Part shown: positions 1 to 740 of the stretch, in pieces
How the letters are laid out: each line of letters opens with the position of its first letter
How positions within the stretch are numbered: position 1 is the first letter of the stretch
Source of the DNA: Candidatus Altimarinota bacterium
GTDB taxonomy: Bacteria; Patescibacteriota; Gracilibacteria; UBA4473
Assembly (NCBI GenBank): GCA_020631075.1
Contig: JAHDHX010000005.1
Coordinates: 1 to 64,000, forward strand
DNA length: 64,000 nt
Reading direction: 5' to 3'
The notes under the pieces: model-generated
Databases searched by the model: none
What the model was told of the DNA's origin: nothing
Seen by the model: the letters and a program-made list of their open reading frames with translations, nothing else
Position numbers and translations under genes: made by a program

Positions 1-56
1 CTTAAGTCGTAACAAGGTATCCGTACGGGAATGTGCGGATGGATTATCGCCTTTTA
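1..56 (+). rRNA. rrs: 16S ribosomal RNA, 3' end (partial; 5' part is outside the window)
   Basis: AAGTCGTAACAAGGTATCCGTACGGGAATGTGCGGATGGATTATCGCCTTTT matches the universal 16S 3' end; helix 45 CCGTACG-GGAA-TGTGCGG is intact. Confidence 0.93.
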
Positions 57-208
57 CAGAGGCTAATGGGTATCGGAGCAAACCAATTTTTTTTACCGCT
101 CCTAAGACGTATATGAGAGTTTTACGTAAACTCTGGTCTCTCATATGCTAAATTCCCAGGGTCGAATTATACGTTCGAAGTGTCAGAGATTTTTTTGTAC
201 CTGAAAAT

Positions 209-257
209 AAAGTAAGAACCTCCTTTAGGAGGTTCTTATGGTTGATTTTTTAAAATA
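209..257 (+). terminator. Rho-independent-like hairpin downstream of 16S
   Basis: TAAGAACCTCC-TTT-AGGAGGTTCTTA perfect inverted repeat followed by a T-rich run. Confidence 0.6.
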
Positions 258-275
258 AAAAAATACAAATAGGAC

Positions 276-740
276 ATGGGAAATAATAATTTTGAAACAA
301 ATTTCTACATATCAAAAGAAGAAAAATCTGCACTTATTGCCAAACATGGCAAAGTTCCAATGTTATACGATTTTTATAATAAAAATCATGACAGACTACC
401 GCCACTTACCTCTGTATTTGCAAAAAAATGCAATAATCTCTCAGAGCTATCGATAGAAAACCGATACAAAATATTTGAAATAATTATGGCACTTCCTTCT
501 AAGGAAGGAATGCATCGATACCTTATCAATCTCCCAAAACAACCCACCGACATAAGAGAAGAAATGAAAGACATCTTACTTGGAAAAGAATACTACAATG
601 AAGAATTCGTAGAAATAAGCACTCGCATTGTCAGTGGAACTATAGAAAACATCCTCAAAGCCTTTGCCAAACATGGCATTACCTTTGAGCTCAACCAAGA
701 ATTTCAAGAAGCCAGTCAAACACTTCAGCTTACAGCTTAA
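276..740 (+). CDS. hypothetical protein (AT-rich orphan)
   Basis: 154-aa ORF, AT-rich relative to neighbours; no family recognised. Confidence 0.7.
   Translation: MGNNNFETNFYISKEEKSALIAKHGKVPMLYDFYNKNHDRLPPLTSVFAKKCNNLSELSIENRYKIFEIIMALPSKEGMHRYLINLPKQPTDIREEMKDILLGKEYYNEEFVEISTRIVSGTIENILKAFAKHGITFELNQEFQEASQTLQLTA

Follow-up and report, generated by a model that had tools for sequence, protein, structure and literature searches.

A variant anti-Shine-Dalgarno core in a family of Gracilibacteria that appears to drift within the limits of a precursor 16S rRNA hairpin

The 16S rRNA gene at the start of the window (the whole 64,000-nucleotide stretch of DNA analyzed) ends in a tail in which the anti-Shine-Dalgarno (aSD) core CCTCC has become TCGCC. 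We consider it probable, at roughly 80%, that this is the genuine 3' end of a single 16S rRNA, that Shine-Dalgarno (SD) pairing was abandoned in the ancestry of the organism, that the tail is constrained by a hairpin formed with the 3' trailer, and that initiation of translation is SD-independent. Few bacterial sequences are as conserved as the CCUCC tail, and its conservation is usually explained by pairing with mRNA alone. The features of the locus are as follows.

1–40, plus strand: 3'-terminal part of the 16S rRNA gene as far as helix 45
21–38, plus strand: helix 45, CCGTACG-GGAA-TGTGCGG, which folds as a stem in RNA folding
41–51, plus strand: 16S tail GGATTATCGCC, with the aSD core TCGCC at 47–51, where E. 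coli has CCTCC (1535–1539)
49–63, plus strand: covarying hairpin GCCTTT-TAC-AGAGGC between the aSD core (G49, C50, and C51, equivalent to 1537–1539) and the 3' trailer
167–179, plus strand: trailer arm of the 16S processing stalk, TTATACGTTCGAA, the exact complement of TTCGAACGTATAA, which lies on contig C3 in the leader of the 16S gene
212–251, plus strand: strong hairpin GTAAGAACCTCC-TTTA-GGAGGTTCTTAT with a T run downstream (z −4.15, 0 of 200 shuffles)
276–740, plus strand: next downstream ORF (154 amino acids), outside the 16S unit

Reading of positions 41–51 against the E. coli tail (GGATCACCTCC) bears out the three substitutions in the canonical tail that an earlier note on this DNA had described, namely C1533U, C1535U, and U1537G. 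Its description of helix 45 as intact with a changed sequence also holds, as the helix folds normally. The note had placed the feature at 1–56; the tail and helix 45 were correctly located, but the true extent is larger, with the hairpin closing at position 63 and the trailer reaching to ~179. The tail sequence occurs once in the assembly, a 1.46-Mb, 95.9%-complete Gracilibacteria-type MAG, and another contig has the remainder of the 16S gene at its end (G000:C3:11–1079, minus strand). A search of the 1.46-Mb assembly found no further 16S copy, and hence none with a normal tail. At the gathering threshold, Rfam reported no match for the 16S fragment in the window, presumably because the fragment is short.

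Three substitutions in a normally invariant tail could indicate a pseudogene or relaxed decay of the entire 3' end. However, this is the sole 16S gene in the genome, and it retains helix 45, the leader-trailer processing stalk, and a compensated 3' hairpin, which argues against a pseudogene and extends the case that the earlier note had made against random decay of the whole 3' end; we regard decay as extremely improbable. The location of the tail at bases 1–56 of its contig and the split of the 16S gene across two contigs raise the possibility of an assembly or binning artefact, with a chimera at the contig end or a 16S fragment from a contaminant. This is scarcely credible, since the tail, helix 45, and trailer hairpin are common to genomes of the window genome's own family (designated f1, with f2, f3, and so on denoting other families of the class). 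A 16S tree places the C3 part of the gene (1085 bases at the contig end) inside the f1 clade, which is monophyletic with a support of 100. In addition, the leader on C3 is exactly complementary to the window trailer over 13 nt, a length matched by 0 of 300 shuffled leaders. The complementarity of TTCGAACGTATAA to positions 167–179 identifies the pieces on C3 and in the window as one gene with an ordinary leader-trailer stalk. Related arms of the TTCGAACGC type occur in the 16S leaders of several relatives.

Alignment to relatives, proposed as a check in the earlier note, showed that 14 of the 17 f1 genomes with a readable tail have G at position 1537 (TCGCC, CCGCC, or CTGCC), and the change is therefore lineage-wide rather than a sequencing or assembly error. 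The three f1 genomes that retain CCTCC all belong to one genus. Tails also vary in other families: CACTTCC, CATCTCC, and CATTTCC in f5; CTATCTCC in f14 and f23; CCTCT in f4; CCCCT or CTTCC in f2; and TTCCC in f31. The remaining families of the class have CCTCC or TCTCC, and in other classes of the phylum CCTCC was found in every matched genome of a broad sample, in which the pattern matched only 54 of 196 genomes. Most of the named genomes that match the helix-45 region exactly are MAGs labelled Candidatus Gracilibacteria; the matches also include one Peregrinibacteria MAG as well as bacterium DOLZORAL124_38_8. A contig filed as Draconibacterium orientale (L044, DYSN01000238.1) has a 16S 3' end of the Gracilibacteria type and is likely to be mis-binned.

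The loss of SD-aSD pairing inferred in the earlier note is supported by the mRNAs. SD-core motifs (GGAG, GAGG, or AGGA) precede 3.1% of 196 ATG starts in the window genome, as compared to 4.1% in shuffled leaders, with starts taken from a home-made gene finder that was checked on E. coli and, for ribosomal proteins only, by homology. The identical code applied to E. coli gave 57% versus 21% in shuffled leaders. No SD-like motif was found upstream of starts in the window genome, nor did an SD occur before its ribosomal-protein genes with homology-fixed starts. SD motifs were near the shuffled level in every class member tested, CCUCC-keepers included, although samples were small. Two genomes of other Patescibacteria families do use SD sequences (0.43 versus 0.19 and 0.17 versus 0.06 in shuffled leaders).

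The specificity of the aSD might instead have been switched, with mRNAs carrying a new, AGGCGAU-like SD complementary to AUUAUCGCC. A few bacteria and archaea without CCUCC do retain strong mRNA pairing (category iii of PMC10783764). In the window genome, however, the duplex energy with its own tail was −2.17, versus −2.00 for shuffled leaders, with 12% versus 9% of leaders pairing at least as strongly as −6 kcal/mol, and G is under-represented at −13 to −5 upstream of starts. These values largely refute a switched specificity, which we consider highly improbable, and they indicate that no replacement SD has arisen. With duplexes of both its own and the canonical tail at the shuffled level, no CCUCC core in its sole 16S copy, and a variant common to close relatives, the genome resembles SD-scarce organisms lacking CCUCC; the stable pairing of an altered tail with many mRNAs seen in SD-abundant organisms lacking CCUCC was not found.

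Families f6, f9, and f13 keep CCUCC, and their mRNAs have little or no SD where tested. A motif scan located a prfB frameshift-type site, TATCTTTGA, at the right place in these families (L194, L204, L208, and L193), in which the tail is canonical. In f1, prfB is a single open frame without an SD-dependent frameshift. Recoding of prfB might be what keeps the aSD in f13, f6, and f9. The distribution of tails and SD motifs suggests that SD use faded first in the class and that the aSD drifted later in some families. An alternative genetic code was considered for the window genome and rejected, as TGA is a stop codon and the genes called under table 11 are both more numerous and better. Elsewhere in the class, prfA/prfB-like or YbeY genes contain in-frame TGA codons (G028, G039, G032, and G030), which point to TGA possibly being read as sense in f10, f12, and f14.

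The hairpin at 49–63 consists of the pairs G49-C63, C50-G62, C51-G61, U52-A60, U53-G59, and U54-A58. Pairing of the aSD core with the trailer occurs in nearly every class member outside f14 and f23 (for example, CTCCTTTCTAGGGAG, and GCCTTTTACAGAGGC in the window genome). The hairpin is absent from f14 and f23 and from one genome with canonical CCUCC (G021), and thus is not universal in the class. The changed core positions that have trailer partners, equivalent to E. coli 1536, 1537, and 1539, covary with them. At 1537, all 69 tails have a Watson-Crick pair (UA in 53, GC in 14, and CG in 2), the 1536 pair in f5 is, with a single exception, either U with A (11 tails) or C with G (8 tails), and the 1539 pair is U-A in two tails; the register in all of these counts was chosen partly by pairing. 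Compensated swaps include U-A to G-C in f1 and C-G to U-A in another family. When trailers were permuted and the register chosen anew, the stem score of 5.34 for real trailers compared to 4.76 for permuted ones, and 0 of 500 permutations scored as high. Permutation within f1 or f5 alone gave no significant covariation with this permissive score, and hence the case for covariation rests on changes between families and on the tree. At least seven changes at position 1536 and at least four at position 1537 map to the 16S tree. The partner of 1536 shifts the same way in a mean of 3.8 of 4 independent pairs and never the opposite way, although with only four such pairs on well-supported branches the sign test (p = 0.125) cannot reach significance alone. 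As partners change together, the aSD region appears to be under selection for pairing with its own trailer, and drift of the tail looks to be limited by maturation of pre-16S rRNA, not by mRNA.

This short stem lies within the longer leader-trailer processing stalk, and RNase III is present in the window genome; the hairpin is likely to function in 16S 3'-end maturation inside the stalk. To our knowledge, YbeY is nearly universal among bacteria. It was found in 0 of 20 f1 genomes and was likewise undetected in f3, f5, f7, and f10, while 14 other genomes of the class have it. YbeY is an RNase that PMC5101352 links to 16S 3'-end maturation. Loss of YbeY was considered as a cause of aSD drift and rejected, since f3 and f7 lack YbeY yet have near-canonical tails, and f2, f4, and f14 have drifted with YbeY present. 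With YbeY gone, the hairpin could alternatively survive into mature 16S rRNA and form an additional terminal helix, leaving the aSD permanently self-sequestered and the ribosome SD-blind, with all mRNAs started without rRNA-mRNA pairing. The start of the hairpin directly at the aSD core, its covariation with the core, and the pattern of missing YbeY are consistent with such a helix. On the other hand, the presence of the processing stalk and RNase III argues for removal, and YbeY-positive families of the class also have the hairpin. In addition, Gram-positive pre-16S rRNA commonly has, spanning the mature end, a comparable CCUCCUUUCU-AAGGAG stretch that is cut off. We consider a retained helix unlikely and favor a hairpin confined to the precursor.

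The hairpin at 212–251 probably terminates a 16S unit that is monocistronic, judging from its stem and T run. Its 212–240 portion includes ACCTCC-TTTA-GGAGGT, in which intact SD and anti-SD motifs pair perfectly although the genome makes use of neither; hairpins of this type number just two in ~380 kb. No 23S, 5S, or nearby tRNA gene follows the 16S gene within the 64-kb window. The 23S gene is located at G000:C22:158887–160554, ~159 kb off at the opposite contig end, and the 16S gene looks to be monocistronic and unlinked from it. The downstream ORF at 276–740 matched no Pfam family above threshold and has no homologue among the fetched loci.

Some genes of the window genome look to be leaderless, as judged from promoter placement. 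At −14 to −10 before ATG, eight −10 boxes were found where 1.2 were expected (P = 5 × 10^−5), concentrated 12–13 nt upstream of ATG. This is the placement for transcription starting at the start codon, as in leaderless-mRNA translation, and only a small share of genes have it; most relatives show a weak signal or none. Other leaders in the window genome are G-poor. The genome encodes an S1-domain protein and has no Pfam match for bS21, for which 17 of 41 relatives have weak matches.

We propose that ancestors of f1 (Gracilibacteria, Patescibacteria/CPR) gave up SD pairing, so that mRNAs would no longer have held the aSD core to CCUCC. In precursor RNA, pairing of the core with the neighboring 3' trailer would still be needed to form a small hairpin inside the leader-trailer stalk that probably helps define the 16S 3' end. 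With this pairing still required, the core would change mainly along trailer-compensated routes, such as from U1537-A to G-C in f1. Initiation would be SD-independent, on some leaderless mRNAs and on others through G-poor, pyrimidine-rich leaders, probably assisted by the S1-domain protein. A class that appears to have dropped SD pairing first, with its tail then drifting mainly along routes permitted by the pre-16S hairpin, separates two roles of the tail sequence and offers a natural experiment on the frequent persistence of CCUCC in bacteria that do not use SD. It also carries a warning for gene finders and for the curation of 16S ends, both of which will fail on such genomes if they take CCUCC for granted.

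Among known systems, SD-scarce genomes without CCUCC include those of Absconditabacteria, Peribacter riflensis, Campbellbacteria, and Wolfebacteria (2024, PMC10783764). The present case resembles category iv of that study, with no CCUCC core and no SD usage, and CPR relatives are already included there. Its main text, however, does not name f1, treats the tail as unstructured with no trailer pairing or covariation reported, and gives no report of SD loss before aSD change within a class. In the "non-anti-SD genomes" of Lim, Furuta and Kobayashi 2012 (PMC3522020), found in insect symbionts, Flavobacteria, and haemotropic mycoplasmas, loss of the aSD motif likewise accompanies loss of SD-like sequences; here the lineage is an uncultured CPR family, and SD loss extends to relatives that keep CCUCC. 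Bacteroidia are also an SD-blind lineage, in which the aSD is sequestered by bS21-bS18-bS6 (PMC9976891). Sequestration of this type was rejected for the window genome, as CCUCC is kept and hidden by protein in Bacteroidia, whereas here the core itself is changed and Pfam gave no bS21 match. Our literature search, which covered few subscription papers, found no work linking Patescibacteria by name to aSD loss, nor any on covariation of the aSD with the trailer. The joint loss of CCUCC and SD use is thus already known as such, and what is new here is the lineage, the class-wide loss of SD use, and the compensated drift of the tail.
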